DNA from: a virus
IMG/VR virus record: IMGVR_UViG_3300009159_000236
Coordinates: 1-28,440 of that record
Direction: 5' to 3' (one strand)
DNA: 28,440 bases
Shown: one piece after another, positions 1 to 26,410 of the stretch
How positions within the stretch are numbered: position 1 is the first letter of the stretch
How the letters are laid out: every line of letters starts with the position of its first letter
Made by a program: the position numbers and the translations under genes
Notes under the pieces: model-generated
What the model was told of the DNA's origin: nothing
Database searches by the model: none
The model's input: only the letters and a program-made list of their open reading frames with translations

Positions 1-151
1 TACCTTCATCATACCTTTCGGTTTAGATGTTCCCCGTCTAGTCTCTACACCTTCATCTTACGATGCTTGGCTCGGTATTGCCATTTTACAGGTTTCACCG
101 AATTTGAGGAATTACACTCATAAAGTTTCCTAAATGAGGCTCAATTTTCAT
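1..151 (-). ncRNA. Group I intron in tRNA-Leu, partial (3' end outside window)
   Basis: The intron begins right after the second U of the anticodon-loop sequence CUU, the site used in cyanobacterial tRNA-Leu(UAA) introns. Visible landmarks on the minus strand, in order: AATTGAGCC near the 5' end (146-138); a P2-like hairpin with a GAAA loop (139-117); a P-like element AATTCGGTGAAACC (104-91); a Q-like element GGCAATACCGAGCCAAGC (82-65), where UCGGU can pair with ACCGA as P4; an R-like element GTGTAGAGACTAGACGGGG (49-32); a P8-like hairpin ACC-GAAA-GGT (22-13); and AAGGTA at the edge, where the S element should begin. This matches the self-splicing subgroup IC3 layout from memory of the Anabaena intron. 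No homing endonuclease ORF is visible in this part. Confidence 0.88.
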
Positions 152-186
152 AAGTCTGGTGTGTCTACCGATTCCACCATACTCGC
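152..186 (-). tRNA. tRNA-Leu 5' exon (probably UAA), interrupted by a group I intron
   Basis: The 35-nt exon contains a 7-nt acceptor strand GCGAGTA, TG at positions 8-9, a Leu-type D arm with GTG/CAC stem and a GG-containing loop, the anticodon 5' strand CCAGA and then CUU. It stops at U34, exactly where cyanobacterial tRNA-Leu(UAA) genes are split, so the anticodon is inferred to be UAA. The 3' exon (AA, long variable arm, T arm and acceptor 3' strand) lies left of position 1 and cannot be checked. It is the last tRNA seen in a three-tRNA minus-strand cluster. Confidence 0.85.
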
Positions 187-192
187 TTGTGA

Positions 193-223
193 GACTATTA
201 TAACTCAAAGAATCATAATAGTC
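193..223. repeat. Perfect 9-bp inverted repeat between tRNA-Leu and tRNA-CAU
   Basis: GACTATTAT (193-201) and ATAATAGTC (215-223) are exact inverted copies separated by 13 nt. In the minus-strand transcript this forms an AU-rich stem-loop just after the 3' end of the upstream tRNA and just before the 5' end of tRNA-Leu. No U-tract follows, so it is not a classic terminator. A role in precursor processing or spacing is an inference. Confidence 0.6.
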
Positions 224-226
224 AAG

Positions 227-300
227 TGCTCCTTGTCGGGATCGAACCGACCTTAGCCGAATTATGAGTTCGGTGCTTTCAACCAGAGAGCTAAAGGAGC
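227..300 (-). tRNA. tRNA with CAU anticodon (elongator Met or Ile2)
   Basis: A complete cloverleaf can be drawn. The acceptor GCTCCTT pairs with AAGGAGC, followed by discriminator A. TA fills positions 8-9. The D arm has at least three pairs (GCT/AGC) and a GG-containing loop. The anticodon arm is CCGAA-CTCATAA-TTCGG, giving anticodon CAU. The T arm is GTCGG-TTCGATC-CCGAC. The CCA tail is not encoded. The CAU anticodon cannot by itself separate elongator tRNA-Met from tRNA-Ile2, whose C34 is lysidinylated to read AUA. The lack of three G-C pairs at the base of the anticodon stem argues against an initiator. Confidence 0.93.
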
Positions 301-330: not shown

Positions 331-418
331 TAGTCGCCCAGGGTATCGAACCCTGCCAAAGGCCCTAATCTGGGGCAAAGGACTTATAAGATCCCTCTGA
401 ACACCTGTTCTGACGACC
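331..418 (-). tRNA. Class-II (long variable arm) tRNA, apparent anticodon UAU
   Basis: An 88-nt tRNA-like sequence. The acceptor GGTCGTC pairs with GGCGACT (two G-U pairs), with discriminator A. The T arm CAGGG-TTCGATA-CCCTG is canonical. A long variable arm contains the hairpin GCCC-CAGATTA-GGGC, as in Leu, Ser and Tyr tRNAs. The anticodon arm GGGAT-CTTATAA-GTCCT places UAU at 34-36, which would read the Ile codon AUA. The D arm is short (16 nt between acceptor and anticodon stems instead of about 19) and position 8 is A instead of the near-universal U. It could be a Leu-type tRNA with a changed anticodon, a decaying gene, or an unusual functional tRNA. The structure is clear but the identity is uncertain. 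Confidence 0.6.
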
Positions 419-882: not shown

Positions 883-1446
883 TTAAATACTAAAGTAAAA
901 ATAAGCATTAGCGCCATATGTGCTCGCAAAAAGTCCATTTCCACCATTTATAGAACCATCTGTTGTGTATTGCACTTGTCCAGAATTAGAAAGTGATGCT
1001 GGATTAAATGGAGATGTTGTATAATATTGATTACTTACATTACCCGAAACTCTAAAAATTCGATTACCATTAAATGACATGCTATAAAAATCAAAAAATA
1101 ACTCAGATGCGCCATAAATTCCACTAACTCCAAGAAATCCAGTTCTGAAGATATAAAAAATATCATTCAGTATATTATAATTTGTTGTTGATAGTGGAGT
1201 AATATTGGTTGTTTGAATCACCCCATCGCCTGAAAAAGTTGTACCAGGATAAGTCACTGGAAATCTGATAGATTTTGTTCCGTTGGGGTCATTTAATACT
1301 TCAATACTATATGTGGTAGAAGATGCGCCGAGGAAAGTATAAGTATTTCCAGAAGTTGTACCTAATGAAAAATCCACAGAACTTTGAACTATTCCATCAA
1401 CTAATGAATAACCACTAAAAAAAAACATCTGTTGAATAGTTGTCAT
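883..1446 (-). CDS. Putative tail fibre-associated structural protein, 187 aa
   Basis: The protein is rich in Ser, Thr, Gly, Asn and aromatic residues with almost no Lys or Glu, a composition typical of beta-structured phage tail or adhesin domains. It starts MTTIQQMFFFSGYSLVDGIV and continues with short beta-like stretches (NTYTFLGAS, YSIEVLNDPNG, IFYIFRTGF). The ATG overlaps the stop codon of the collagen-like fibre gene by 4 nt (ATGA), indicating translational coupling, so it could be a fibre tip, chaperone or accessory protein. It is the last gene of the long minus-strand structural block. No named family recognised. Confidence 0.6.
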   Translation of the reverse strand: MTTIQQMFFFSGYSLVDGIVQSSVDFSLGTTSGNTYTFLGASSTTYSIEVLNDPNGTKSIRFPVTYPGTTFSGDGVIQTTNITPLSTTNYNILNDIFYIFRTGFLGVSGIYGASELFFDFYSMSFNGNRIFRVSGNVSNQYYTTSPFNPASLSNSGQVQYTTDGSINGGNGLFASTYGANAYFYFSI

Positions 1447-4400
1447 GATAATCCTGCTCCAGAAATTACAAATGTATTAGGTGTAACGACACAAAGAACA
1501 GTACATACACCTCTTTGTGCCAATATTCTATCTGCATTTATTGAAGTTCCGGCAAGATACATTGTTACTCCTGATCGAGAAATTGTTTGTGATGATGCAG
1601 AATTATTATAGATTGTAATTGCATCACCTGCACTGAACACACCAGATGGAACAGTAACTCCACCTGTGGTGGTATTAATCAATTCTCCAACATCTTCTAT
1701 TACAAGAGTATAACTAGCAGATTTCGCATTATTTGGAAGTTTTCTAATATTTCCACCTACATCTGCAACTATTGTTGATGTTAATGTTCCAGTTGATGGA
1801 TTGTATGTGAGTTTACTTGATGATGTTCTAAAATCAGCACTAGATGAAGATGTTGAAATTGTTGGATAATAAGTTGAATTTGTACTGGTATCATCAGATA
1901 ATAATGCAGTAGATTTTCCAACAGCAGAAGTAACCGCCCAGGTACGGTAATTGGAACCAGCAGAATAAGTTTGAGTACTATATCTTAAATAAACTCCATT
2001 ATAATATTTTGCCGCTGCTGGAACTGTTGCGGATACCAATGTCCAAACATTAGAAGTATAACTTCCAACAGTAACAGTACCTAAAATATTCCAGATTGAA
2101 TTGTCATAAGAATATTCCAAATATAGATCATCATAAGCAGTATCTCCCCATCCACCACCACCTCGGTTTACATAAAATTGAATAATATCGACTGCTGCAA
2201 GACAAATCTTAGATCTGTTGGTTATTCTTCTGGGAGATCCATACCATCCAGGATAAAGATCCGCTTCACCAAATACTACAATTGAAGTTGTGGATGGAAC
2301 TTGAGTAGCTGAATTCATTCCAGATACTGATCCAACAGTAGTTAATCTTCCCCCAGATGTAGGAGTTGGAAGATCCACCGTATCTTGATTTAATAAATCA
2401 ATTACACTAAAACTACTTGGACTATATGATTGATCAAATTCATTAATTGTTGTTACTATTGAAGTAACAGCCCAAGTACGATAAACATTTGCAGTACCAT
2501 AAGAACCATTATTAAATCTTAAAAATACACCATTATAATACTTTGCCGCTGCAGGAATTACAACTTCTCTTAGTGCCCATACGTTACTGAATACCTCTGT
2601 ATATCCATCATAACTAGCAACGCCTACAGTATAAAGTGTAGTCCAACCACTAGTCCCATTAATAGAATATTCCAAGTATAACGGATCGTATGCTATATCT
2701 CCCCATCCACCACCACCTCTATTTACATAGAAATATAAAGTTTTTAGTCCTGCAAGAAAAACCTTATTTTTAATAGTGACTGTTCTTGTAGAACTAATAT
2801 ATCCATTACCATCAAAAACTATAATTGGAGTTGTGGATGGAACTTGAGTAGCTACTGCCATTCCAGTTACTGATCCAACAGTCGTTAATCTGGTTCCTGG
2901 TTGAGGTGTTGGTAGATCAAAATTATTTGAAGATGATAAATCTAATAGTGCAAGAGAAGTAGATCCTCCAGATGAACCAGTAGATCCTGCTGCACCATCT
3001 AAATCAAATGTTATGGAAGTAACAGCCCAAGTACGATAAACACTTGCAGTACCATAATAACCATTATTAAATCTTAAAAAGACGCCATTATAATACTTTG
3101 CCGCAGCTGGAACTGTAATACTCAATAATGTCCATACATTACTATCTTGAATATCTCCATCATCAATCGTCCATAAAGTAGTCCAACTAGAACCGTCAAT
3201 AGAATATTGTAAATATAAAGGATCGTATGCTATATCTCCCCATCCACCACCACCTTTATTCACATAGAAATAAACTTTACTTACTGATGTTAGAAAAACC
3301 TTATTCTTAGTAGTGACTGTTCTTGTTGAATTATTGTAACCATTACCATCAAAAACTATAATTGGAGTCGTGGATGGAACTTCAGTTCTTGAATTCATTC
3401 CAGATACTGATCCAACAGTCGTTAATCTGGTTCCTGGTTGAGGTGTTGGTAAATCAAAATTATTTGAAGATGATAAATCTAATAGTGCAAGAGAAGTAGA
3501 TCCTCCGGATGATGCTCCTCCAGATGATCCTGGAATAGAAAAAGATGCTACTATGGAAGTAACAGCCCAAGTACGATAAACAGTTGCAGTACCATAAGAA
3601 CCATTATTAAATCTTAAAAATACACCATTATAATACTTTGCCGCAGCTGGAACTGTAATACTCAATAATGTCCATACATTACTATCTTGAATATCTCCAT
3701 CATCAATCGTCCATAAAGTAGTCCAACCACTAGTCCCATTAATAGAATATTCCAAGTATAAAGGATCGTATGCTATATCTCCCCATCCACCACCACCTTT
3801 ATTCACATAGAAATAAATTTTATCTACAGTAACAAAATATACTTTATTTGGGGTGGTAACTGTTCTTGTACTACTATATATACCATTACCATCAAAAACT
3901 GCAATTGGAGTTGTGCCTGGAACTTCAGTTCTTGTATTCATTCCAGTTACTGATCCAACAGTCGTTAATCTGGTTCCAGAATTATTGGGATATGTTGGCA
4001 ATATTGCTGTATTTGATGTTGATAAATCAAAAACTGCAAATGAGTTTGATCCACTACTTGATGAAGATCCGCCAGAAGCACCCAATTGATAAATTAGTGA
4101 TGTAACTGCCCAAGTATCATTTCCAGAACTTGGAGATGTGGATTGGGCAAATCTTAAAAAGACGCCATTATAATATTGAGAACCTGTAAAATTACTAAGT
4201 ATAATTTCTCGTTGTGTCCATACATTACTAGATAATACCGAATAATCTACAGAATCTATAGTAGTCCAACTAGAACCATTAATCGAATATTGTAAATTTA
4301 TTGCATCAAAAGGAGTATCTCCCCATCCACCACCGCCTCGGTTTATATAATAAAATAACTTAGTTACTGATGTTAAATAAACTTTATTAATATTTGTTAA

Positions 4401-6155
4401 AGTTCTAGCACCAGTGCCGTCAAAAACTGCAATTGAAGTCGTGCCTGGAACTTGAGTATCTACATTTATTCCAGTTACTGATCCAACAGTTGTGAGTCTC
4501 GCACCTGCCCCTACAGTTAATGTTCCAGATACAGAAGTATCCATTAAAGCAAGACTTCCACCACTTCCACTAGTGGCGACTGAAGCAGAAGCACCTTGAA
4601 GTCCTTGGGTATTCTGAGTACCTTGAGCACCTGCTCCACCTTGAGCACCAGAACCGCCAGTAAATCCTTGAGCACCTTGACGACCTTGAGCACCTTGTGA
4701 TCCTACACTACCTTGAGCGCCTGTAGAACCAGTTTGTCCAGATACTCCTTGAAGACCTTGGTTACCTTGAGCACCTTGACGACCTTGAGTACCTTGATCA
4801 CCTACAGCACCTTGAGCACCCGAGAATCCACTAAGACCTTGAATACCTTGGCGACCTTGAGTACCTTGGAAACCTTGTGGCCCTTGAATACCTTGAGCGC
4901 CTTGATTTCCTGCAGTTCCTTGAATACCTTGAGCACCTTGATCTCCTTTAATACCCGCCTGTCCAGTCAATCCTTGAGTACCTTGATAACCTTGCGATCC
5001 TATAGATCCTTGAGTACCTTGATTTGCTCTTCCTTGAATACCTTGAGCTCCTTGGAACCCAGCAGATCCTTGAGCACCTTGTGAACCAACACCTTGCAAT
5101 CCTTGAATACCTTGAATTCCTTGATTACCTTGATTACCTTGAGTACCTTGGAAATTACTCAAAAATCCTTGAAGACCTTGAATACCTTGATTACCTTGCG
5201 TACTTTGAATTCCTTGAGCACCTTGACCAACAAATTCACCAGAAAGTCCTTGAGCACCTTGAGTTCCTTGAGCACCTTGAGTTCCTTGAGCACCTTGTCC
5301 AACAAATAAACCAGAAACGCCTTGAATACCTTGACGACCTTGAGTACCTTGAGTACCTTGATCACCCACAGTTCCTTGACTCCCCACAGAACCAACTGAT
5401 CCACTAATACCCTGAAATCCTTGTGATCCTATGGATCCTTGAATACCTTGATTTGATAATCCTTGAGTACCCTGATTTCCTTGAATACCCTGAAATCCTT
5501 GAGATCCTATAGATCCCTGAGTACCTTGATTTGATAATCCCTGAGTACCTTGAGTACCTTGATTTCCTTGAGTACCCTGAGATCCTTGAGATCCTTGAGT
5601 ACTCTGATTTCCTTGAACACCTTGATTTCCTTGACGACCTTGAGTACCTTGAGCACCTTGACCAACAAATTCTCCACTTATACCCTGATTACCCTGATTA
5701 CCCTGATTACCTTGATTACCCTGAGTCCCTTGAGTACCTTGGGCACCTTGAGAACCTTGACGACCTTGAGTACCCTGAGTACCCTGAGTACCTTGAGTAC
5801 CCTGAGTACCTTGAGTACCTTGGAAATTACTTAAAAATCCTTGAACACCTTGAGCACCCTGAGTACCTTGAGCACCCTGAGTACCTTGAGCACCCTGAGT
5901 ACCAGAAGGTCCAGTAGAACCAATTCCAGAAAGACTACTTGTTTTTATCCAATATCTTTTTCCAATTTCTCCCGCTACTGCACCTAAAAGGTATTGATCT
6001 CCTACTGGAAAAGGATTTGCAACAACAGATGATACACCAACTATTGGATCTCCTAAATCTGGTTCTGCTTGCTCTAATCCCAGATATTGGTAACGATCCG
6101 ATGTAATACCAGTTTGTCCAAATCTTTTTACTCTTCCAGAATTATATTTTGTCAT
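1443..6155 (-). CDS. Collagen-like tail fibre with five C-terminal tandem modules, 1570 aa
   Basis: Residues 1-75 form a non-repetitive head that probably attaches to the virion. Residues about 77-520 are a Gly-X-Gln collagen-like rod (GTQ, GAQ, GNQ, GIQ, GRQ and others), broken by recurrent interruptions FLSNFQ (two), GLSNQG and GEFVGQG/GLFVGQG. Residues about 530-1415 hold five copies of a module of about 175 aa containing RLTTVGSV, a VPSTT/VPGTT stretch, GGGGWGD, a YNGVFLRF-like segment and TWAVTS. The C-terminal part has a TYNPSTGTLTST motif common in marine phage fibres. Collagen-like phage fibres form trimers, so a receptor-binding or side fibre role is likely. Neighbours are the 119-aa protein (8-nt gap) and the 187-aa protein (4-nt overlap). 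Which fibre it equals in T4 cannot be said. Confidence 0.8.
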   Translation of the reverse strand: MTKYNSGRVKRFGQTGITSDRYQYLGLEQAEPDLGDPIVGVSSVVANPFPVGDQYLLGAVAGEIGKRYWIKTSSLSGIGSTGPSGTQGAQGTQGAQGTQGAQGVQGFLSNFQGTQGTQGTQGTQGTQGTQGRQGSQGAQGTQGTQGNQGNQGNQGNQGISGEFVGQGAQGTQGRQGNQGVQGNQSTQGSQGSQGTQGNQGTQGTQGLSNQGTQGSIGSQGFQGIQGNQGTQGLSNQGIQGSIGSQGFQGISGSVGSVGSQGTVGDQGTQGTQGRQGIQGVSGLFVGQGAQGTQGAQGTQGAQGLSGEFVGQGAQGIQSTQGNQGIQGLQGFLSNFQGTQGNQGNQGIQGIQGLQGVGSQGAQGSAGFQGAQGIQGRANQGTQGSIGSQGYQGTQGLTGQAGIKGDQGAQGIQGTAGNQGAQGIQGPQGFQGTQGRQGIQGLSGFSGAQGAVGDQGTQGRQGAQGNQGLQGVSGQTGSTGAQGSVGSQGAQGRQGAQGFTGGSGAQGGAGAQGTQNTQGLQGASASVATSGSGGSLALMDTSVSGTLTVGAGARLTTVGSVTGINVDTQVPGTTSIAVFDGTGARTLTNINKVYLTSVTKLFYYINRGGGGWGDTPFDAINLQYSINGSSWTTIDSVDYSVLSSNVWTQREIILSNFTGSQYYNGVFLRFAQSTSPSSGNDTWAVTSLIYQLGASGGSSSSSGSNSFAVFDLSTSNTAILPTYPNNSGTRLTTVGSVTGMNTRTEVPGTTPIAVFDGNGIYSSTRTVTTPNKVYFVTVDKIYFYVNKGGGGWGDIAYDPLYLEYSINGTSGWTTLWTIDDGDIQDSNVWTLLSITVPAAAKYYNGVFLRFNNGSYGTATVYRTWAVTSIVASFSIPGSSGGASSGGSTSLALLDLSSSNNFDLPTPQPGTRLTTVGSVSGMNSRTEVPSTTPIIVFDGNGYNNSTRTVTTKNKVFLTSVSKVYFYVNKGGGGWGDIAYDPLYLQYSIDGSSWTTLWTIDDGDIQDSNVWTLLSITVPAAAKYYNGVFLRFNNGYYGTASVYRTWAVTSITFDLDGAAGSTGSSGGSTSLALLDLSSSNNFDLPTPQPGTRLTTVGSVTGMAVATQVPSTTPIIVFDGNGYISSTRTVTIKNKVFLAGLKTLYFYVNRGGGGWGDIAYDPLYLEYSINGTSGWTTLYTVGVASYDGYTEVFSNVWALREVVIPAAAKYYNGVFLRFNNGSYGTANVYRTWAVTSIVTTINEFDQSYSPSSFSVIDLLNQDTVDLPTPTSGGRLTTVGSVSGMNSATQVPSTTSIVVFGEADLYPGWYGSPRRITNRSKICLAAVDIIQFYVNRGGGGWGDTAYDDLYLEYSYDNSIWNILGTVTVGSYTSNVWTLVSATVPAAAKYYNGVYLRYSTQTYSAGSNYRTWAVTSAVGKSTALLSDDTSTNSTYYPTISTSSSSADFRTSSSKLTYNPSTGTLTSTIVADVGGNIRKLPNNAKSASYTLVIEDVGELINTTTGGVTVPSGVFSAGDAITIYNNSASSQTISRSGVTMYLAGTSINADRILAQRGVCTVLCVVTPNTFVISGAGLS
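1915..4560 (-). repeat. Five tandem ~535-bp repeats encoding GGGGWGD modules
   Basis: The RLTTVGSV coding segment recurs near 4487, 3957, 3411, 2877 and 2331, giving spacings of about 530-546 bp. The middle copies share long identical DNA stretches, for example around 3660-3735 and 3120-3195, showing recent duplication or gene conversion. The outer copies (nearest 4500 and 2000) are more diverged. Confidence 0.85.
4595..5915 (-). repeat. Collagen-coding degenerate 9-bp repeat tract (1570-aa fibre)
   Basis: The DNA is a run of 9-bp units of the type CAAGGTACT (Gln-Gly-X), read on the minus strand. Third-position and X-codon variation makes neighbouring units differ. The tract is interrupted by non-triplet segments such as those near 5153-5170 and 5820-5840. 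It creates long spurious ORFs on the other frames and strand. Confidence 0.85.
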
Positions 6156-6527: not shown

Positions 6528-9500
6528 TTAACTCAATGCAATGATTAGGGGTGTTACTGTATTTAACAGACTTTGACTGAACGCCCTTCCAGAAATAGTA
6601 CCAGTTAATTGATTAATTACAACGCCATCACCAATTTGGAAGTTACCGCCTTGATTTGTACTGGTATAAACAACTTGTCCACCATTACGTTTATCAGTTT
6701 CATTTTCCTGAATAGTAACTCCACCCAATGCGGGTTTTGCAGTATTAATATCTGTACCAGATCCTACCCATTCAAGTGAAATTGATGTTGCAATCTGAAG
6801 GCTGATTCTTGAGAAATAAACTGTCGTACCAGGATCAACACTATTATTTAGATTCTGTGTCAGAATAACAGTTGAGATGCCAGAAACAGGAAGTGTTGCA
6901 GTTTGAATCGTATAATATAAAGGATATAATACTGCTGTTGCATCACCACCAACTCCAGATCCTCCAGGAGCATTGGAAATTGTTACATTAGGAACTGTTG
7001 AATATTGACTTCCAGTACTAATAACATCAATGGAAGTTATAATACCATTTTCATCCACATTTGCGGATGCTTCTGCACGAATTCCACTAGGACCTTCTGG
7101 AAAATCAATTGTCACATTTGGTGGATTAAGTTGACTATATCCACTTCCACCATTAGTAACTTGAAGAGAATTTATTTGATAATATAATTCTCCAAAATAA
7201 ATTGCCTGACCATCATATGGACGTTGCCCGCCCAATCCAGAAATTGTCACAGTATCAGTTTCAATTTCAGCACTATTAACTACTTCACCAGTATAACGGT
7301 AAATTGATTTTGTCTCATAATCTCCAACACCATCAGATACTAGTCCATAGTTTCCGAATGAACAGTTGGAGTTTGTAATGTCGCATTGTCCACCAGACTT
7401 AGTAAAGATGCCAATATCATCGCAAATTGTAAAGATCGAAACTAACTGAGAATATGCACCATTTGTAATTGAGCATCCAATTCCACCTTGATTGTATTGT
7501 GTATAAGAGTCAACACTCATGGTCCCAGTTACACCAATATCTTCTGCCTCTCCAGGTTCTGCGTTAAATCCATCAACTCTCATTCCAATACTATCTGGAA
7601 TAAAGTTTGTACAGTTTCTAATATAAGGACCTTGAGTAATAGGACCAACACCCTTAGAATATGGAGGAAGAACTACGCCACCAGTAACATACTTATGTGC
7701 CATTGGTGCTGTACCAACGTTAACAGTAAATGTACTTCCAGTGCCAACAACACTTAATACTCTAAAATCATATCCATTATTTCCTGTTGGATAGATTGTA
7801 GTTGTTCCAGAACCACTTAAACAAGAAAACTCCAAATCACGAATGGTTACAAAATCTCCAACTCTCACATTCAAATTTGGAGCAGTGATTGTGGTAATTC
7901 CAGTTAAATTATTATATGATGCAGTGGTAACACCTACTGAACGATTTATAATATATCCTCCAGAAACATATGTATGTGGAATAGTACTAATTCCAGTATA
8001 GATGTCAAATGTCCCATTTGGATAGACTTTTTCAATATAAAACTCATATCCATATCTTCCAGATGGGAATAATTGAGTCGATGTTGGTCCACCAGATGAA
8101 CAAGAGAAAAGTAAATCACGGACTTCGATAATATCACCCTTTTTCAAAGAGAATCCTTGTGATGTAATTGTTGTTTTACCACTCTTTTCATCATAAATTG
8201 CATTTTGAATTTTTCTAATCGAATCAAATCCAGATCCCCTATTTCCGGGATATGTGGTATTAAATCCAACATATGCAAATGCTGTAGATCCAAATCCTAC
8301 AATTGAAGTTACAATGCCAACACAAGATTTTAATGCTGATGCAACATCGGCACACGAAGCAATAACATCATTAAATCCGGTTTTAGGATCAACTTGCATT
8401 GCAAGATCTTTGATTTGTGTGTATTGATTTTGGAAGTTTGTGTATTTTTGAATTGTTCCACCCGAAACATAAGTATGTGGTAAGGTTGATTGTCCAACTA
8501 CAACTTCAAATGTGTTCACTCCAACTATAGATTTAACTGGGAAAATATACCCAAGATTTCCACTTGGATATAATAATGTTCCAGGTCCAGAAGGGCAAGT
8601 GAATCCAAGACCAGCAATCTTTACTGGATCATTTTTAGTCAATCCGTGGTTTATTGCGGTTATAGTTGTAATACCTGTATTTGCATCATACACAGCATTT
8701 ACCACAGTGGTTCCCAATCCAACAGGATAACCTCCCCAGGAGCAGTTATTAATTACGGCTCGGGCAATATTGAATGAATAATTAAATGTTGAGATTGTTT
8801 GTTGAACTTCTCCAGGATTATGAAGAATTTGTGGAATTAGATTCCAATTAGAATCATAATAAGCTTTACCTGCCGCAACCGATCTAGAGTTTCCACCTCT
8901 TGTAATATCATGAATTATACACTTCCATACCGATCTAACATCATCTGAACAATCTCCACTTTCAAGTACAACACCATAACGAACTGATGGTGCAGTTAAT
9001 GTACTTGCTGCCCCAATCATATTGGTCACAATACCGACAAGTTGGCGAATAGTTGTTCCGACACCAACACATCCACCATTTACAATAATTACCGATGCAT
9101 CTTTGATTTGGGAAACACTACCAATTCCAGATTGATATGAAATTGGAGGAGTATAATTATTAATCACATGAGTTGCAATTCCTGCAGCATAATTTAGTGC
9201 AGCAATTGTTGCTCTTTGAGTTGCAATACCAGTAATATGAATTAGACCACCAGAACTATTGAAATATGAATATCCCGCACCAATTGATTTGCGATTACTG
9301 TTTGCCTTAAGATCATAAGAAACAGCATTCATAATGCTGACAACATCTTCCCTACAGTTTGTATAATCTCCGCTTGATAATGTAAATCCATATCCAACAG
9401 GTGATGTTAAGAATCCAACTGCTTCTGCAGAAATATAATTTAAGTTCTTATCAATTAGTCTTGCAGCATCTTGCTCTCTGTGACTGCCTGCAAATCCACT

Positions 9501-12500
9501 AAATCCACTTGTTAAGAATCCAACAGATTCTTTTGCAATATAATCTAAATTCAAACGAATCATTCTTGCTGCATCAAAGAATCTATCTGTCGCCACACCA
9601 GATAGTGGTTGTAAAGAAACGACAGCAGATCCACTGGTCATATTTGGTCCAATGAAACTTATATTAGTAATGTGGCATCCATTGTTTACATAGAATAGAT
9701 CCTGATCTGGATATTGTGGTGTTACTACACAGTTACGAAGTTCTGTTCCCTGTACTGATACTGTTTTTGCCAGAACAATTGGATTATTTTCAACATATAC
9801 TCCCGGAAATACTTTAATTGTGTCTCCAAACAAAGCAACAGAGGCAGCTGATTTGATAGTTCTTTTTGGATAATTTTCTGCTAATCCAGTATTATCATCA
9901 TTACCAGTTTGAGAAACATAAATTGTTTTTCCAATTGGACGATATGCATCAACAGTTACCCTACCTTTTCCTGGATTTTGTGTTGAGGTAATATCAATAC
10001 CAATACCAGGTACTAATTGCGTTACAATTCCAACTAGATTTACACCACTACCAAAATATTCCGTGGAAGTTGTTGTTCCTACAACTGTTAAAGTATTTGT
10101 TACAATACTTGTTCCAATACCAACACTACCGGATGATGGATTATAAACTAATTTTTTAGAAGAAACATATTCATTATTTGTTGTTCCACTTGTTTGTTTT
10201 ACGAATGTTAGATAATCAACTTCATTGGTAGTATTATTGTCTTCTAATACTATGACTCCAGAACCAGGAATTCCTTGAAGACCTTGGTTTCCTTGAGTAC
10301 CTTGGCGTCCTTGAGTACCTTGAGTACCTTGAGTACCTTGAGGACCTTGAAAAGATGCTGCACCCTGAAGTCCTTGATTAGCCTGAAGACCTTGGCGACC
10401 TTGAGTACCTTGAACACCTTGATTACCCTGAGTACCTTGAACACCTTGATTACCCTGAGTACCTTGAGTACCCTGAGTCCCTTGAAAAGATGCTGCACCC
10501 TGAAGTCCTTGATTACCTTGTGTACCTTGTGTACCTTGATTACCTTGAGTTCCTTGGAAATTACTTAAAAATCCTTGAACACCTTGGTTTCCTTGAGTGC
10601 CTTGAGTGCCTTGAGCACTTTGTTGTCCTTGAGTGCCTTGAAATCCCTGATTACCTTGTGTACCTTGTGTACCTTGATTACCTTGAGTACCTTGATTACC
10701 TTGAGTACCTTGGAAATTACTTAAAAATCCTTGAACACCTTGGTTTCCTTGAGTACCCTGGTCACCTTGAGTACCTTGGAATCCTTGAGTACCTTGAGCA
10801 CCTTGAGTACCTTGGAAATTACTTAATGGTCCTTGAAGTCCTTGGCGACCTTGATTACCTTGCGTACCTTGATTACCTTGCGTACCTTGATTACCTTGAG
10901 TTCCTTGACGACCCTGATTTCCTTGAGTACCTTGAGCACCAAGGCCTTGATTACCTTGAAGTCCCTGAGTACCTTGGAAATCACTTAATGGTCCTTGAAG
11001 TCCTTGAGTTCCTTGGAAATTACTTAATGTACCTTGATTTCCTTGAGTACCCTGGCGCCCTTGAGCACCCTGAGTACCTTGAGTACCTTGGGCACCTTGA
11101 GTTCCTTGGAAATTACTTAAAAATCCTTGAACACCTTGACGACCTTGGGGACCTTGAATACCTTGAGCACTTTGTTGACCTTGAGTACCTTGAGTACCTT
11201 GGAAATTACTTAATGTACCTTGGTTTCCTTGAGCACCTTGGTTTCCTTGAGCACCTTGAGTACCCTGGGACCCTTGAAAAGATGCTGCACCCTGAAGTCC
11301 TTGATTACCTAATCCTTGAGTACCTTGAGTACCTTGATCACCTTGAGTACCTTGATTTCCTTGAGTACCTTGGAATCCTTGATTTCCTTGTAGACCCTGG
11401 CGACCTTGATTTCCTTGTAGACCCTGGCGACCTTGGTTTCCTTGAGTACCTTGATTTCCTTGATTTCCTTGAAGACCTTGATTTCCTTGATTTCCTTGAT
11501 TTCCTTGAAGACCTTGGTTTCCTTGATTACCTTGAGTACCCTGGTCACCTTGAGTACCTTGGTTTCCTTGATTTCCTTGAGTACCTTGGCGCCCCTGGCG
11601 TCCCTGAGTACCTTGAGTACCCTGGTCACCTTGAGTACCTTGGTTTCCTTGATTACCTTGGGTGCCCTGGTCACCTTGAGTACCTTGGTTTCCTTGATTA
11701 CCCTGGCGACCTTGAGTACCTTGAGCACTTTGTTGACCTTGAAGACCTTGATTTCCTTGAATACCTTGATTGGAAAGTCCTTGAGTACCTTGGGCGCCCA
11801 CGCGCCCTTGAGCAGCTTGAGTACCCTGGCGACCCTGATTACCTTGGTTTCCCTGATTACCTTGGACACCTTGATCACCTTGAGTACCTTGGCGACCTTG
11901 AGTACCTTGGAAATTACTTAATGGTCCCTGAAGTCCTTGGCGACCTTGAGTACCTTGAAATCCTTGGCGACCTTGAGTACCTTGAGCACCCTGAGTACCC
12001 TGAAAATTACTCAAAAATCCCTGAACACCTTGATTTCCTTGAAGTCCTTGAGTACTTTGGTTTCCTTGAGTACCTTGGAAATCACTTAATGGTCCTTGAA
12101 GTCCTTGAAGTCCTTGAGTGCCTTGACGACCTTGAAGACCTTGAAGACCTTGAAGACCTTGATTACCTTGAGTACCTTGGAAATCACTTAATGGTCCTTG
12201 AAGACCTTGAAGACCTTGAAGACCTTGAAGACCTTGATTGCCTTGGTTTCCTTGAGTTCCTTGGTTTCCTTGAGTGCCTTGACGACCTTGAAGTCCTTGA
12301 TTACCTTGAAGACCTTGAAGACCTTGATTACCTTGAGTACCTTGGAAATCACTTAATGGTCCTTGAACACCTTGAACACCTTGAGTGCCCTGAGCACCTT
12401 GACGACCTTGAGTACCTTGGTCACCTTGAGTGCCTTGATTACCTTGAGAACCAAAACCACCAGTAAATCCTTGAGCACCTTGACGACCTTGAGTACCTTG

Positions 12501-12947
12501 GACACCTTGATCACCTTGAGTACCCTGAGTACCCTGATTGCCTTGGTTTCCTTGAGTACCTTGAGTACCTTGAGTACCTTGAAATCCTTGAGTACCTTGA
12601 GTACCCTGGAATCCTTGATTGCCCGGAGTACCTTGAAGTCCCTGTAGACCTTGGCGACCTTGAAGACCTTGAGTACCTTGTCCAGAAAATTGCCCACTTG
12701 TACCCTGAATAGCTTCGACGGATGCGTATCCTAGATTATTCCAAGGAGTAACTCCATCACCAAACTTAAAGCGATTAGTATCAGATTCAATACCTAAAGT
12801 ACCAGCTGATAAAATTTCATTTTCAGATTCCCATTCTGAAGCTAATTGATATTTACCATCTTGAAGATTTGGTGCAATAATATTTTTAAAAAAAGTTACC
12901 TTTTCATTAAAATAAGATTCATTTCCAAATACGGTAATATCTGCCAT
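6528..12947 (-). CDS. Giant collagen-like tail fibre with beta-helix domains, 2139 aa
   Basis: Residues about 1-75 carry a tail-fibre head motif (LGIESDTNRFKFGDG) resembling the N-terminal domain of phage tropism determinants. Residues about 81-895 are a Gly-X-Gln collagen-like rod with twelve xLSxFQ interruptions plus GLSNQG, GAASFQ and GQQSAQ variants. After a linker (YNPSSGSVGIGTS) comes a likely right-handed beta-helix starting at YVSQTGNDDNTG (about 1010). Next are two DAARxI/GFLTS repeats, two repeats around VSYDLKANSNRKS and IIHDITRGGNSRS, three Ig-sized repeats containing LPHTYVSGG-type motifs, and a second beta-helix-like stretch (about 1780-1900). It is one of the longest genes in the phage and probably the long receptor-binding fibre. 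Its ATG is 1 nt after the 184-aa spike gene ends. Confidence 0.82.
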   Translation of the reverse strand: MADITVFGNESYFNEKVTFFKNIIAPNLQDGKYQLASEWESENEILSAGTLGIESDTNRFKFGDGVTPWNNLGYASVEAIQGTSGQFSGQGTQGLQGRQGLQGLQGTPGNQGFQGTQGTQGFQGTQGTQGTQGNQGNQGTQGTQGDQGVQGTQGRQGAQGFTGGFGSQGNQGTQGDQGTQGRQGAQGTQGVQGVQGPLSDFQGTQGNQGLQGLQGNQGLQGRQGTQGNQGTQGNQGNQGLQGLQGLQGLQGPLSDFQGTQGNQGLQGLQGLQGRQGTQGLQGLQGPLSDFQGTQGNQSTQGLQGNQGVQGFLSNFQGTQGAQGTQGRQGFQGTQGRQGLQGPLSNFQGTQGRQGTQGDQGVQGNQGNQGNQGRQGTQAAQGRVGAQGTQGLSNQGIQGNQGLQGQQSAQGTQGRQGNQGNQGTQGDQGTQGNQGNQGTQGDQGTQGTQGRQGRQGTQGNQGNQGTQGDQGTQGNQGNQGLQGNQGNQGNQGLQGNQGNQGTQGNQGRQGLQGNQGRQGLQGNQGFQGTQGNQGTQGDQGTQGTQGLGNQGLQGAASFQGSQGTQGAQGNQGAQGNQGTLSNFQGTQGTQGQQSAQGIQGPQGRQGVQGFLSNFQGTQGAQGTQGTQGAQGRQGTQGNQGTLSNFQGTQGLQGPLSDFQGTQGLQGNQGLGAQGTQGNQGRQGTQGNQGTQGNQGTQGNQGRQGLQGPLSNFQGTQGAQGTQGFQGTQGDQGTQGNQGVQGFLSNFQGTQGNQGTQGNQGTQGTQGNQGFQGTQGQQSAQGTQGTQGNQGVQGFLSNFQGTQGNQGTQGTQGNQGLQGAASFQGTQGTQGTQGNQGVQGTQGNQGVQGTQGRQGLQANQGLQGAASFQGPQGTQGTQGTQGRQGTQGNQGLQGIPGSGVIVLEDNNTTNEVDYLTFVKQTSGTTNNEYVSSKKLVYNPSSGSVGIGTSIVTNTLTVVGTTTSTEYFGSGVNLVGIVTQLVPGIGIDITSTQNPGKGRVTVDAYRPIGKTIYVSQTGNDDNTGLAENYPKRTIKSAASVALFGDTIKVFPGVYVENNPIVLAKTVSVQGTELRNCVVTPQYPDQDLFYVNNGCHITNISFIGPNMTSGSAVVSLQPLSGVATDRFFDAARMIRLNLDYIAKESVGFLTSGFSGFAGSHREQDAARLIDKNLNYISAEAVGFLTSPVGYGFTLSSGDYTNCREDVVSIMNAVSYDLKANSNRKSIGAGYSYFNSSGGLIHITGIATQRATIAALNYAAGIATHVINNYTPPISYQSGIGSVSQIKDASVIIVNGGCVGVGTTIRQLVGIVTNMIGAASTLTAPSVRYGVVLESGDCSDDVRSVWKCIIHDITRGGNSRSVAAGKAYYDSNWNLIPQILHNPGEVQQTISTFNYSFNIARAVINNCSWGGYPVGLGTTVVNAVYDANTGITTITAINHGLTKNDPVKIAGLGFTCPSGPGTLLYPSGNLGYIFPVKSIVGVNTFEVVVGQSTLPHTYVSGGTIQKYTNFQNQYTQIKDLAMQVDPKTGFNDVIASCADVASALKSCVGIVTSIVGFGSTAFAYVGFNTTYPGNRGSGFDSIRKIQNAIYDEKSGKTTITSQGFSLKKGDIIEVRDLLFSCSSGGPTSTQLFPSGRYGYEFYIEKVYPNGTFDIYTGISTIPHTYVSGGYIINRSVGVTTASYNNLTGITTITAPNLNVRVGDFVTIRDLEFSCLSGSGTTTIYPTGNNGYDFRVLSVVGTGSTFTVNVGTAPMAHKYVTGGVVLPPYSKGVGPITQGPYIRNCTNFIPDSIGMRVDGFNAEPGEAEDIGVTGTMSVDSYTQYNQGGIGCSITNGAYSQLVSIFTICDDIGIFTKSGGQCDITNSNCSFGNYGLVSDGVGDYETKSIYRYTGEVVNSAEIETDTVTISGLGGQRPYDGQAIYFGELYYQINSLQVTNGGSGYSQLNPPNVTIDFPEGPSGIRAEASANVDENGIITSIDVISTGSQYSTVPNVTISNAPGGSGVGGDATAVLYPLYYTIQTATLPVSGISTVILTQNLNNSVDPGTTVYFSRISLQIATSISLEWVGSGTDINTAKPALGGVTIQENETDKRNGGQVVYTSTNQGGNFQIGDGVVINQLTGTISGRAFSQSLLNTVTPLIIALS
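7675..8700 (-). repeat. Three Ig-sized protein repeats inside the 2139-aa fibre
   Basis: Three modules of roughly 85-95 aa each contain: a start 'YDANTGITTIT' or 'YDEKSGKTTIT' or 'YNNLTGITTIT'; a centre of the type 'KIAGLGFTCPSG', 'EVRDLLFSCSSG' or 'TIRDLEFSCLSG'; then 'LYPSGN.GY'; and a closing 'PHTYVSGG' or 'AHKYVTGG'. Each keeps a single Cys at the same place. They span about 8455-8700, 7960-8225 and 7675-7935. DNA divergence is high, so the duplication is old. Confidence 0.7.
10262..12705 (-). repeat. Collagen-coding degenerate 9-bp repeat tract (2139-aa fibre)
   Basis: About 2.4 kb of CAAGGTACT-type units encoding Gln-Gly-X. Recurrent interruption cassettes encode xLSxFQ at about 12355, 12185, 12085, 12008, 11910, 11205, 11110, 11028, 10983, 10815, 10715 and 10558. 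The same cassette DNA appears in the 1570-aa fibre gene, showing exchange between the two tracts. Confidence 0.85.
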
Positions 12948-21961: not shown

Positions 21962-22774
21962 TCAAATTGTTTGAATAGGATTGTATGGTCCACCAACTCC
22001 TCTTGGTCTTGGATCATCCAATCTTCCCGTACCTTGATTTAGATTTCTCCAAAGCATTTCCTGCTTACCAGTAGCAAGTTTATTTGGCAATACACTATTG
22101 TCAATTGTAGCAGATGCTGGTATTAAATTATTGTTAATATTTTGATAAATTGATAAACTAGTAGTTCTTCCTGCAATATAACGATCAAATTGGAATGAAA
22201 CGTTGATGAGCATTATATTTGAAGAACTATATGAAACTGGAATTGAGGATATGCTTAACGGGAAAAGTCCAATAAAGTTATACTCAATTTCTGCATTATA
22301 ATCTCGATCAAATTTAATTATTTTTGTGGATTCCGATTTATAGTATTTTGGATACTGCATCCTAACAAAATATGCCTGAGATTCTTGCCGAATAGGATTA
22401 GAAACTCCTGCAATTGGATTATAAGAACCACTCGTAGTGAATTCCATCCAATATTCTAAAAATTTTAATATATTATAATTACTATCAACATAAAATTCCA
22501 TCGAAATTTGAGAATAAACTTTCGAATGGGCAAATTTTTCTTGAACTCCTATATGATTATAAATCTCCCCAGATCCCAATTGAAATGTTGGAAGAGATGT
22601 GGAAGAACACAGAAGTCCAGCATCATTGGTAATAAATCTTTGAGTTATTCCTCTCCTATCCAAATAGGACAGCAATTGACCACTAAATCCACCAAATTGA
22701 ACTTCATAGTGTGAAGTTTGGGCAAGATTTGAAAATAGTGGTTTAATGTCCGATATTCTACGCGGTGAAGCCAC
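21962..22774 (-). CDS. gp54-like tail-tube-fold baseplate protein (tube initiator), GTG start, 270 aa
   Basis: The protein has features of the tail tube fold shared by T4 gp19, gp54 and gp48: an N-terminal HYEVQFGGFSGQLLSYLDRR segment, EFYVDSNYNILKFLEYWMEF, YFVRMQYPKYYKSESTKIIK, EIEYNFIGLFPLSISSIPVSYS, then INVSFQFDRYIAG. 'FP.SISSIPVSY' is the clearest tube-family signature. A lone tube subunit (gp19, about 163-200 aa) is less likely because of the baseplate context and the longer tail. Start is GTG at 22774-22772: no in-frame ATG lies upstream before a stop, and AGG is at suitable spacing. It is transcribed divergently from gp4 through a 35-bp shared region. Confidence 0.62.
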   Translation of the reverse strand: MASPRRISDIKPLFSNLAQTSHYEVQFGGFSGQLLSYLDRRGITQRFITNDAGLLCSSTSLPTFQLGSGEIYNHIGVQEKFAHSKVYSQISMEFYVDSNYNILKFLEYWMEFTTSGSYNPIAGVSNPIRQESQAYFVRMQYPKYYKSESTKIIKFDRDYNAEIEYNFIGLFPLSISSIPVSYSSSNIMLINVSFQFDRYIAGRTTSLSIYQNINNNLIPASATIDNSVLPNKLATGKQEMLWRNLNQGTGRLDDPRPRGVGGPYNPIQTI

Positions 22775-22775
22775 T

Positions 22776-22783
22776 CTAAATAC
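22776..22783 (+). promoter_or_regulatory. Putative late promoter for gp4 (divergent pair)
   Basis: CTAAATAC lies at 22776-22783, just upstream of the GTG of the oppositely oriented gp54-like gene. If it works like a T4 late -10 element, transcription would begin near 22789, leaving a leader of about 20 nt before the gp4 ATG at 22810. It forms an exact inverted repeat with the minus-strand motif at 22802-22809. Confidence 0.55.
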
Positions 22784-22801
22784 CTATTATATGTCGTATT
22801 A

Positions 22802-22809
22802 GTATTTAG
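22802..22809 (-). promoter_or_regulatory. Putative late promoter for gp54-like gene (divergent pair)
   Basis: CTAAATAC reads on the minus strand at 22809-22802, immediately next to the gp4 ATG at 22810. The expected start site is near 22796, with about 21 nt of leader before the GTG at 22774. It is the mirror copy of 22776-22783. Confidence 0.55.
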
Positions 22810-23247
22810 ATGTCATATAAGGGAAAATATCAACCAGCATTCCCCAAAAAGTATAAGGGCGATCCATCAAATATCACATATAGGTCTTTGTGGGAACGTA
22901 AATTTATGGTGTATTGTGATACTAATGAAAATATTTTAGAATGGGGAAGTGAAGAATTGGCGCTTCCTTATAGATCTCCAATAGATAATCGCATTCATAG
23001 ATACTTTCCAGACTTTTATATTAAGGTCAAAGAAAGTAACGGTTCAATTAAGAAATATCTAATTGAAATCAAACCAAAAAAACAAACAGTAGAACCAATA
23101 CCACAAAAAAGAAAAACAAAAGGATATATCTATGAAGTTTATGAATATGCTAAAAATCAGGCAAAATGGAAAGTGGCGCGGGAATTCTGTGAAGATCGCC
23201 AATGGGAATTTAAAGTTTTAACCGAAGATGATTTGGGGATTAAATAA
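22810..23247 (+). CDS. 4: Head completion protein gp4-like (PD-(D/E)XK fold), 145 aa
   Basis: The protein begins MSYKGKYQPAFPKKYKGDPS and follows the T4 gp4 head-completion pattern: ITYRSLWERKFMVYCD, EWGSEELALPYRSPIDNRIH, RYFPDFYIKV, YLIEIKPKKQT. Candidate TnsA/PD-(D/E)XK-like catalytic positions are Glu29 (WER), Asp68 (FPDF) and Glu86-x-Lys88 (IEIK). T4 gp4 is 150 aa and is needed to join heads to tails; whether it cuts DNA is not settled. It is the first gene of the plus-strand block and its stop (TAATG) overlaps the next ATG by 1 nt. The ATG directly abuts the putative minus-strand late promoter. Confidence 0.9.
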   Translation: MSYKGKYQPAFPKKYKGDPSNITYRSLWERKFMVYCDTNENILEWGSEELALPYRSPIDNRIHRYFPDFYIKVKESNGSIKKYLIEIKPKKQTVEPIPQKRKTKGYIYEVYEYAKNQAKWKVAREFCEDRQWEFKVLTEDDLGIK

Positions 23248-23813
23248 TGGCATCTAAATTAACTGGATACGAGAAACAATTAGACAGTTATACTAAAAAT
23301 GAATTGGTCGAAATTGCACAGAAATATACAATTTATTATATTGGAGAATCTGGTCAAGGAAAAACATCTGGTTATAGCAAATTAACAAAAGAAAAGTTAA
23401 TTTCAATTATTCGTAATGATAATGACTATAAGGATGCAAATCCAAATATTAATAATAGACCAGTTAATAGAATTCAAAGACTGGTTAACAGTTTATATGG
23501 AACTGAGGAACCTGAGGAACTGATGGATTATATTTTGGAAGCACTGTCTGATGGAGGAAGTTCAAGTACATCCAAAGGAAAATACTACACCTTTTTATAT
23601 TATGCAAAAACTCCAAGAATAACTTACGATCAACATCCACTTATTCTTGCTGGCGATTCTACTGCAAATGGATTTTATGGATTCAATTATCACTGGGGAA
23701 AAGTACGCCGATATACTTATCCAGAAGCTGCTAGTCCATTTTTTGAAGTTTCAGTTCGAGAATTTTATTCCTTGAAGCAACTTCCTTATGCAAAATATAT
23801 TACAAAGACCTGA
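23247..23813 (+). CDS. Putative virion protein with SAP/Rho-N-like N-terminus, 188 aa
   Basis: Residues about 1-60 (LTGYEKQLDSYTKNELVEIA, then YSKLTKEKLISIIRND) look like a helix-extended-helix SAP or Rho-N type nucleic-acid-binding unit. A linker (75-110) leads to a beta-rich C-terminal domain with KYYTFLYYAKTPRITYDQHP, GFYGFNYHWGKVRRYTY and FYSLKQLPYAKYI. The 'YDxxPL...GFxGxNxHW' layout occurs in small proteins near head/tail completion genes of marine T4-like phages. It lies between gp4-like and gp48-like genes, where T4 has genes 3, 2 and 4, so a DNA-end or head-tail joining role is conceivable but not shown. No gene symbol is assigned. Confidence 0.65.
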   Translation: MASKLTGYEKQLDSYTKNELVEIAQKYTIYYIGESGQGKTSGYSKLTKEKLISIIRNDNDYKDANPNINNRPVNRIQRLVNSLYGTEEPEELMDYILEALSDGGSSSTSKGKYYTFLYYAKTPRITYDQHPLILAGDSTANGFYGFNYHWGKVRRYTYPEAASPFFEVSVREFYSLKQLPYAKYITKT

Positions 23814-23819
23814 TAAATA
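23812..23819 (+). promoter_or_regulatory. Possible late promoter upstream of gp48-like gene
   Basis: GATAAATA at 23812-23819 differs from the T4 late consensus TATAAATA at one base and lies 14 nt before the gp48-like ATG, overlapping the previous stop codon. The leader would be very short, so this is a weaker candidate than the others. Confidence 0.35.
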
Positions 23820-23833
23820 GTTAGAAAACAATA

Positions 23834-24730
23834 ATGGCAGGATCTTTAAGATATCCGATTAAAAACATAGGAATAAATGATGATTATCTCAGAATAGAGA
23901 TTGTTGAATATGTTCCACCTGGACTTGGGCAGCAAGGGCAAGGATTTGCATTGGGAACTACGGATCAAGCAATAAAAAATAATAAAAAACTATTACAGAC
24001 GATTATATTACCAATACCACAAAATATTTCAGATTCAAATTCTGCTAGTTGGGGAGAAAATTCATTAGATTCTGTTGCGGGTGGACTTATGAGTGGAACT
24101 GCAGATGTAATGTCCTCATCAACTCCATTTAATACTGGATTAAAAGCAGTAAAAGGTGTAATTGATAAAGTTACGGGAGGAGTTACTGATGCTACAGGAC
24201 AAAAAGCAGCAACGACAGCATTTACAGGATTAGCAGTACAAACATTATTAAGTGGAGAAGCAAATATTAATCAACTAGTTTCCAGATCAACTGGAGCAGT
24301 TATTAATCAGAATGTTGAGTTGTTATTTGGAGGAGTTACGATTAGAACACCATTTCAATTTTCATACGACTTGATACCCAGATCTGAAGAAGAATCGTTA
24401 GTGGTTAAAAATATTATTAGATTATTCAAACAAAATATGACAGCAAGTAAAGGTAGTGCAGAGTCTAATGGTGGAGGATTTTTTGTAAAATCTCCAAATG
24501 TATTCTTACTATCTTACATGAGTGGTGGAAAAATACACCCATTTTTAAACAAATTTAAACCTTGTGCTCTATTAAATATGGGAGTAAACTATACTGCTTC
24601 TGGACAGTATGCAACTTATTCAGATGCTACTCCAGTTCATCTACAACTAAGTCTTTCATTTCAAGAATTATCTGTTGTATATGCTGAAGATTATAATGAA
24701 GGAGACGGTACAATAGGAGTAGGTTACTAA
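23834..24730 (+). CDS. 48: Baseplate tail tube cap protein gp48-like, 298 aa
   Basis: The N-terminal MAGSLRYPIKNIGINDDYLR is followed by QTIILPIPQNISDSNSASWG, a Gly/Ala/Thr-rich insert (about 85-150), then the family core: NQNVELLFGGVTIRTPFQFS, YDLIPRSEEESLVVKNIIRL and FKQNM. The C-terminal part is strongly typical: KSPNVFLLSYMSGGKIHPFL, NKFKPCALLNMGVNY, GQYATYSDATPVHLQLSLSF and QEL. In T4, gp48 (364 aa) caps the baseplate and with gp54 starts tail tube growth. It is followed by the gp53-like gene with a 1-nt gap. The N- and C-terminal patterns make this family call strong. Confidence 0.85.
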   Translation: MAGSLRYPIKNIGINDDYLRIEIVEYVPPGLGQQGQGFALGTTDQAIKNNKKLLQTIILPIPQNISDSNSASWGENSLDSVAGGLMSGTADVMSSSTPFNTGLKAVKGVIDKVTGGVTDATGQKAATTAFTGLAVQTLLSGEANINQLVSRSTGAVINQNVELLFGGVTIRTPFQFSYDLIPRSEEESLVVKNIIRLFKQNMTASKGSAESNGGGFFVKSPNVFLLSYMSGGKIHPFLNKFKPCALLNMGVNYTASGQYATYSDATPVHLQLSLSFQELSVVYAEDYNEGDGTIGVGY

Positions 24731-24731
24731 A

Positions 24732-25958: not shown

Positions 25959-26353
25959 AAGAGTTTTTCTAAAGGATTTCTAATATCACTACCACTAAAA
26001 TGATTTTTTAACAAATTTACTTGTTCTTTAAATTTTTCTTCTGGACAGCGTTGTCTGCCCAAATTAAATAATCTAAGTGCAATAACAACATTGCCAGGAA
26101 TATAACCATCAAATTCGTCCAATCTTTCTAAACTTGGCGCAAGTGGATTATGAGATTCAAAAACTCCTTGTGGGTTAATTGGAAATCCTGTCCAATAACA
26201 TTTGCCATTTTGGTTAAAAAATTGCTCAACTAAATACGTTTCATCAATAGTAACATCTAATGGTTCTGTTCTTTTGATTCCGTTTTTCTTTTCTTGTCCA
26301 GGTCGCGCAGCAGTTTTTGCTTTATGAATAAGTGCTTTCCAAGGATTTTTCAT
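25955..26353 (-). CDS. HNH-type nuclease-like protein, 132 aa
   Basis: I start this at ATG 26353 (MKNPWKALIH). A longer reading to 26395 would begin inside the gp32 terminator hairpin. The basic N-terminus (KAKTAARPGQEKKNGIKR) precedes NGKCYWTGFPINPQG (50-63) and SHNPLAPSLERLDEFDGYIP (68-86) then GNVVIALRLFNLGR. 'CxxTGxP...NPLAPSLxRxD...GYxxGNV...N' is the layout of a subgroup of phage HNH endonucleases, although the canonical zinc CxxC pairs are missing. It overlaps the Mom-like gene by 4 nt. No Shine-Dalgarno sequence is visible in the U-rich stretch upstream, so expression probably depends on read-through from gp32. It could be a free-standing homing-type or restriction-type enzyme. Confidence 0.62.
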   Translation of the reverse strand: MKNPWKALIHKAKTAARPGQEKKNGIKRTEPLDVTIDETYLVEQFFNQNGKCYWTGFPINPQGVFESHNPLAPSLERLDEFDGYIPGNVVIALRLFNLGRQRCPEEKFKEQVNLLKNHFSGSDIRNPLEKLL

Positions 26354-26357
26354 AATT

Positions 26358-26392: not shown

Positions 26393-26410
26393 CATTATAG
26401 CACAAATATC

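Follow-up and report, generated by a model that had tools for sequence, protein, structure and literature searches.

At the left edge of the window, by which we mean the whole stretch of DNA analysed here (28,440 bases, the entire virus record IMGVR_UViG_3300009159_000236), the minus strand carries a tRNA-Leu(UAA) gene split by a group I intron. The 5' exon, GCGAGTATGGTGGAATCGGTAGACACACCAGACTT (GCGAG...GACTT), occupies positions 186-152 and ends with U34, and it is followed by the first 151 nt of the intron (positions 151-1), which is 200 nt long in twin contigs. The assignment comes from the alignment with relatives and from Rfam Intron_gpI, which, when the whole window was searched, matched the element at 52.4 bits (gathering score 50; E = 8.4e-11), truncated on the 3' side by the record end. 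Read in the direction of the tRNA, the intron shows the U34.G pair of P1 at the 5' splice site (152 with 142), a P2 hairpin with a GAAA loop (117..138; double changes in 6/7 pairs, 87.8% of cells paired), and a block placed by covariation (72..111) that includes the 5' strand of P3 (111-106), P4 (101-97 with 76-72, the P and Q elements), and P5. The P6a hairpin, placed by alignment (54..65), reads CATCGTAAGATG in the window and CAAGAGAAATCTTG in otherwise identical contigs. The 5' strand of P7 with the R element GACTA (39..43) is located by the covariation of P7, whose partner strand S starts just past the record end, the last base of the record falling one base short of it. Alignment and covariation together define the P8 hairpin (7..29; CAUC/GAUG in the window, CACC/GGUG in relatives).

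Directly upstream of the split gene, on the same strand, lies a putative sigma-70-like promoter (TTGACT-17-TATAAT, 197..225), called from its consensus match at 11/12 positions, and further upstream a tRNA-Met(CAU) gene (226..300, minus strand; ARAGORN, and 53.4 bits with Rfam). ARAGORN called one tRNA gene in the window and missed the split tRNA-Leu. A tRNA-like element with a CTTATAA loop and the T-arm GGTTCGATACC (331-418, minus strand) is a doubtful call made at a lowered threshold and was reported neither by ARAGORN with default settings nor by Rfam; it is identical in four twin contigs and similar in other phages.

The window belongs to a T4-like cyanophage (Kyanoviridae), in agreement with an earlier reading of the sequence as T4-like. 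It encodes T4-type families (baseplate hub/lysozyme, gp32, gp53, head closure, and helicase loader), its virion and replication genes are most cyanomyovirus-like, and its closest named relatives infect Synechococcus; S-SRM01 matches at 74.0% over 65% of a 7.9-kb query. From these relatives alone, the host is probably cyanobacterial. Two tail-region proteins of 1570 and 2139 aa (1443-6155 and 6528-12947, minus strand) contain collagen-like Gly-X-Gln repeats, with 4 and 13 Pfam Collagen stretches, respectively, and the 1570-aa protein also matches Reelin subrepeat B. A Mom-like DNA modification protein (25371-25958, minus strand; Pfam Mom 1.5e-25, phrog_1384) is encoded beside an endonuclease gene (25955-26395; phrog_3322), next to gp32.

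The part of the split gene beyond the record end is found in related contigs. An exact 29-base stretch of the core occurs in 30 viral contigs, all of which (30/30) continue to S, P9, and the boundary G|AAAATC with more of the tRNA. Four contigs (L064, L378, L379, and L049) match the window at 100% identity along 5,301 bp (22000-27300) and contain the complete 200-nt intron with S, P9, the terminal G, and the 3' exon. In the first three of these twins, a 154-aa free-standing HNH gene lies right behind the tRNA, and L049 ends inside this gene. The first-pass annotation had proposed a group I intron splitting tRNA-Leu(UAA) after U34, with P, Q, and R elements, a GAAA-capped P2, and a P8 at the positions given above, to be checked against a group I model and by locating S, P9, and the 3' exon; all of this holds.

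The window intron equals that of the four twins up to P6a and differs from it at nine alignment positions in the last ~64 nt (P6a to P8), while over the whole 186 nt of exon and intron it has one difference from contig L116 and two from contig L021. Either the phages have exchanged intron alleles, or the end of the contig is an assembly chimera. For a chimera, in which the 3' part of the intron (about positions 1-65) would stem from a co-occurring phage sharing the 5' part, we see an even chance: the record stops right there, and a window that equals the four twins over the 5,301 bp and the tRNA-side flank nevertheless departs from them here and approaches L116 and L021 instead, but a mobile intron would itself yield real allele exchange between phages. 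This question concerns the end of this record and does not compete with the main reading developed below.

The fold was evaluated with a hand-drawn group I structure of 53 pairs on an alignment of 55 of the 67 distinct introns; eight introns with longer inserts were omitted, as were L049, L086, L090, and L104 for no special reason. In this alignment, 95.3% of 2,903 cells are paired and 29 pairs show double changes. Doubly changed cells number 324, against 82.1 after shuffling and 11-38 after shifting the structure by 1-3 columns, and chance is excluded as the source of the fold. All pairs of P3 (6/6) show double changes and P3 is 100% paired, with 99.3% for P4 and 75.8% for P5 (55 introns); the weak pairs, given as unpaired introns out of 55, are one in P5 (40), two in P2 (20 and 19), one in P6a (17, gapped), and one in P8 (12). 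Invariant pairs in P1, in outer P9, and with the S strand (the 3' side of P7) are no evidence because they were imposed by the collecting patterns, and the same applies to the U.G pair counted in 55/55 introns. Next to the bulge of P7, the pair 125-164, whose R side was left free by the core search, is A-U in 107, C-G in 26, U-A in 20, G-C in 12, and of another kind in 3 of 168 core rows. The group I fold P3-P8 with P, Q, R, S, and P7 is present, with S seen in relatives including the four twins.

The complete relative L021 folds better than 200/200 shuffles (z = -3.70), and the Rfam gathering score was reached by 6 of 14 relatives. A laxer Rfam run on the other eight returned three at E values of 1.9e-10 to 1.2e-9 (with L348 exceeding the gathering score and L087 and L109 narrowly missing it) and no listed match for L016, L043, L066, L333, and L334; the L016 intron is one base off the L021 intron, which did pass gathering. 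The intron alleles of L390 and L128 contain ~60 nt more, located around P6a, the region that holds an HNH gene in the huge phage L334.

The phage tRNA-Leu gene occurs with and without the intron. The exact joined exon (46 bases) is found intron-free in 78 viral contigs, and in 43 contigs the intron comes after an identical 5' exon of 35 nt. The empty site independently places the insertion point between U34 and A35. All 41 upstream flanks compared, from 40 intron-bearing loci and the window, find a match among the intron-free flanks with E values of 1e-10 or better. For example, L390 (with intron) is 98.6% identical to L255 (without) over the 367 nt up to the junction and matches it in 33/33 nt beyond, where L390 ends, and L037 (with) is colinear with L305 (without) for kilobases on both sides at 81-90% identity. 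Many intron-bearing and many intron-free loci also have a downstream neighbour family in common. When the 5' exon and intron of L021 were compared by blastn with 50,697 phage records (E 1e-5), 17 records matched, and only three of these, all metagenomic huge-phage records, did so with at least 80% query coverage. The named cyanophages S-SSM7, S-SSM6a, and DSL-LC02 match the first 33 bases only, which are exon, and the tRNA-Leu of S-SSM7 is annotated with a length of 84 nt.

Intron-bearing loci are linked to HNH genes of one family (phrog_10822 at 2.1e-45; Pfam HNH). When adjacency is judged from match positions among loci that share this 5' exon and extend for at least 600 nt downstream, the HNH gene lies directly downstream of the tRNA in 8/37 intron-bearing and 0/65 intron-free loci (Fisher p = 1.8e-4, which is only indicative because the loci are related and not independent). 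Within 2 kb on either side, the counts are 9/37 and 1/65, to which L263 adds an intron-free locus excluded from the 65 for its short downstream sequence. In the remaining 29 of the 37 intron-bearing loci, the tRNA is not directly followed by an HNH gene, with a partial match farther off in L026; at the intron-free L308 and L263, partial HNH matches precede the tRNA by a few hundred nt. Homologous HNH genes also lie inside the tRNA-Leu introns of L334 (the 595-kb phage LR756511), L035, L047, L084, and L057. In L068, such a gene is located upstream of S and the tRNA 3' exon, and a 5' exon, looked for at this locus, was not found. The intron-encoded HNH proteins and that of L068 are 42-67% identical to the L021 HNH.

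Relatives including three of the twins have a free-standing endonuclease gene adjoining an ORF-less intron, in the region that lies outside the window itself. This is the anatomy of collaborative homing, in which, according to the accessible parts of the descriptions from a cyanophage, a free-standing endonuclease and an ORF-less group I intron act at one site, and homologous HNH genes are also found inside introns (PMC3984707, PMC10448857). The target differs, being a protein gene in the collaborative homing that these parts describe and a tRNA gene in the present, putative case.

The introns are found in several kinds of phage tRNA. With a looser 3' pattern, at least 120 stretches were retrieved from viral contigs. 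Among the matches listed, ARAGORN with introns allowed placed 115/135 in a tRNA, 83/135 in Leu(UAA), and 20/135 in none; its labels of the remaining pattern matches are partly shifted by a base. Joining the exons in silico for 131 introns (again among the matches listed) gave 53 cases of Leu(UAA) and 5 of Arg(UCU) joined after U34, 14 of CAU and 2 more of Arg(UCU) joined after U33, 4 of Asn(GUU) joined after U35, and one each of Thr(UGU) and Ile(UAU), with 47/131 left without assignment by this strict test, many of them Leu by ARAGORN. At least three joins were rejected as spurious, namely L008 (Stop), L126 (Leu after U33), and L130 (Phe), with implied introns of 615-845 nt. In L133, three intron signatures (two from Rfam, the third a pattern match) fall within ~1.5 kb (~3551-5010), in split tRNA genes including one for Arg and possibly one for Lys.

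An indication of movement comes from two UAA tRNAs. Some of the interrupted Leu(UAA) genes encode tRNAs with a short variable arm; L016 is one of them and L021 a class II tRNA-Leu, and their introns are identical in 197/198 positions (99.5%). A nearly identical intron in two tRNA genes of different ancestry implies that the intron has moved without its tRNA. Intron-free copies of the short-arm tRNA(UAA) are present in 106 contigs; a role as stop suppressor was considered and rejected, given these copies and an anticodon, UAA, that reads UUA. The short-arm UAA phage tRNAs (L391 onward) have the acceptor pair G1.U72 in their 12 commonest forms, and both the short arm and G1.U72 are unusual for a leucine tRNA.

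Presence and absence by themselves do not distinguish gain from loss, and the 78 intron-free contigs could descend from an ancestral phage tRNA-Leu that had the intron and from which it was repeatedly and precisely lost, e.g. by recombination with an intron-free allele. We nevertheless consider such vertical inheritance with loss improbable: the 99.5% identical introns in two non-homologous tRNA genes require transfer in any case, and HNH genes are found at intron-bearing sites.

The cellular origin of the family was addressed with three trees. The first (231 of 261 rows after duplicate removal) was replaced because of its long branches; the second comprised 169 distinct of 210 full-length core rows (110 columns) and the third 80 hand-picked rows (197 columns), with poorly supported deep forks and an unsure placement of L334 and other long-branched rows. 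In the 169-row tree, the window falls into a starred set of nine (seven phage contigs, one unassigned bacterial record, and the window), and a branch of 0.57 leads to a set (99/100) of the cyanobacterial tRNA-Leu rows plus a single long-branched row from an alphaproteobacterium. The 80-row tree recovers the cyanobacterial tRNA-Leu set with 100/100 on a branch of 0.70, with the window outside, in a group of its own with 14 phage rows (87/96); one phage row, L024, is placed next to the cyanobacterial set with little support (59/68). Forcing the cyanophage and cyanobacterial introns together was not rejected in either of two AU tests (p = 0.173, and 0.457 with the 80-row tree). Because of these values, we do not claim to reject a deep common root, and an ancient common ancestry of the phage and common cyanobacterial introns is possible.

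The common cyanobacterial tRNA-Leu(UAA) intron, which we take to be subgroup IC3, resides in the same tRNA and at the same position after U34 as the phage intron, but the two differ in their R elements (GCAGAGACTCGACGGGAG and GAGAGTCCAATTC against GTAGAGACTAGACGG and TAGTCCAGACCAC) and form separate sets in both trees. Of 388 genomes sampled from the cyanobacterial class, 81 contain the core of this common intron, searched as exact AAGGTGCAGAGACTCGACGGGAG, and all examples fetched (20/20) are in tRNA-Leu. The phage-like core was found in 8 of the 388, for which the ARAGORN calls were Arg(CCU) in six and Leu(UAA) in one (L348), leaving one uncalled whose 3' exon is Arg-like. The window has its GTGTAGAGACTAGACGG core in common with tRNA introns of alphaproteobacteria, with other phages, and with tRNA-Arg introns of cyanobacteria, and L348 is a cyanobacterial genome with a non-standard tRNA-Leu intron that has this core. 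Cyanobacterial tRNA-Leu introns comprise more than one lineage. Over 86 columns, the identity of the window core is at most 0.767 with the common cyanobacterial introns and reaches 0.86 with alphaproteobacterial, 0.849 with cyanobacterial tRNA-Arg, and 0.901 with an acidobacterial intron (L148, partly masked), while L348 has 0.686. By core identity, the family is nearer to proteobacterial tRNA introns than to the common cyanobacterial tRNA-Leu intron.

A search of bacterial genomes for the motif GAAGGTGNAGAGACTNGACGG gave at least 118 loci (at least 119 matches), and among the matches listed ARAGORN called 52 Leu(UAA), 18 Arg(CCU), 10 CAU, and 16 none. In our sample, which was drawn with a motif characteristic of such elements, these bacterial tRNA group I introns (Leu UAA, Arg CCU, and CAU) are the cellular introns closest to the phage family, with which they share the fold, the anticodon-loop insertion, the U.G splice-site pair, and the core motifs. 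The phage family differs from them by its residence in phage genomes, its many anticodon types, its common intron-free alleles, and the HNH genes beside or inside some of its members.

The first-pass annotation had called the intron cyanobacterial-type and had seen in it the capture of a host gene together with its intron. Neither view is supported: the common cyanobacterial rows are a set apart (99/100 and 100/100) and the window sits in the GTGTAGAGACTAGACGG group, and recent capture was dropped after the trees, the signatures, and the empty sites, i.e. the intron-free alleles at matching loci, together with the 197/198 intron in a non-homologous tRNA. Acquisition of a cyanobacterial tRNA-Leu gene along with its intron would account for the same tRNA, the same site U34|A35, and the probably cyanobacterial host group, and it could invoke the non-rejected common root and the GTGTAGAGACTAGACGG core in the tRNA-Leu intron of L348. 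We rate it as very unlikely, since the common cyanobacterial introns are set apart by a stem of 0.57-0.70 changes per column, the window core is closer to alphaproteobacterial, tRNA-Arg, and L148 introns than to them and L348 is more distant still, 78 contigs carry the phage exon without an intron, and non-homologous tRNAs hold near-identical introns. A dead intron in a tRNA-Leu pseudogene, as the extra P6a inserts of some relatives (L128 and L390) might suggest, is the least probable reading of all, given that compensatory change maintains P3, P2, P6a, P8, and inner P9, that P4 is nearly invariant, that both exons are kept in the twins, and that a promoter-like site is found at the tRNA.

We therefore favour, with good confidence, the interpretation that the intron belongs to a family of tRNA group I introns that resides in phages and probably spreads by HNH-assisted (collaborative) homing. 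The intron would have entered a tRNA gene already present in the phage, or would have been repeatedly gained and lost there. The HNH protein, encoded behind the tRNA in the phage population of the window and inside the intron in other phages, may cut the intron-free tRNA gene of a co-infecting phage, and repair could then copy the intron, with or without the HNH gene, into the cut gene. After transcription, the RNA is predicted to excise itself with exogenous guanosine, using the U34.G pair of P1, the G-site in P7, and the terminal G, and the joining of U34 to A35 would give a usable tRNA; as had been pointed out from the sequence at the outset, the split tRNA must splice to be useful.

A 2014 review states, in its accessible part, that the phage group I introns then known were all in protein genes, despite the many tRNA genes of phages (PMC3984707). 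Introns in phage tRNA genes were described for the Lak megaphages as enigmatic and, to the knowledge of their authors, unreported before (PMC6784885). The Lak introns are likewise located in phage tRNA genes but, in the accessible part of that paper, are not described as group I, unlike the present family, a comparison made by description only (PMC6784885). The intron-carrying huge-phage records seem to stem from a study whose main text, as far as accessible, does not contain the word 'intron' (PMC7162821). Group I-like introns of the Pelagibacter phage HTVC120P and of the uncultured KT997847 have cores (~74 nt) that are 84.0% and 90.5% identical to that of the window, but they are located at protein-coding capsid genes and not in a tRNA gene. 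Group I-like matches were also seen in Atu_ph07 and in crAss-like phages. In the literature searched, which left most subscription papers and bioRxiv outside, we found no report of phage tRNA genes with group I introns, and the novelty of the family is provisional.

The family itself is real and complete in the twin contigs, and it is probably mobile. Group I introns in phage tRNA genes occur in about a hundred or more public metagenome contigs (among the matches listed), together with exact intron-free counterparts and HNH genes. As a caution for annotation, split phage tRNAs can be missed by a standard tRNA search such as ARAGORN as run on the window. We tentatively suggest, as a joint picture that is possible but for now doubtful, that phages may be the main reservoir and vehicle of a group I family specific to the anticodon loop, whose P1 guides would have been adjusted to fit tRNAs for Leu, Arg, Asn, Thr, and Ile and those with CAU, and whose single HNH lineage would alternate between free-standing and intron-encoded forms, and that the patchy tRNA introns of bacteria (alphaproteobacterial Leu, cyanobacterial Arg, and L348-type Leu) may partly derive from phages. 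The intron-free counterparts and the HNH genes make the movement of tRNA introns between genomes, a long-standing question, testable, and they make this family a natural candidate for collaborative homing at a tRNA anticodon.
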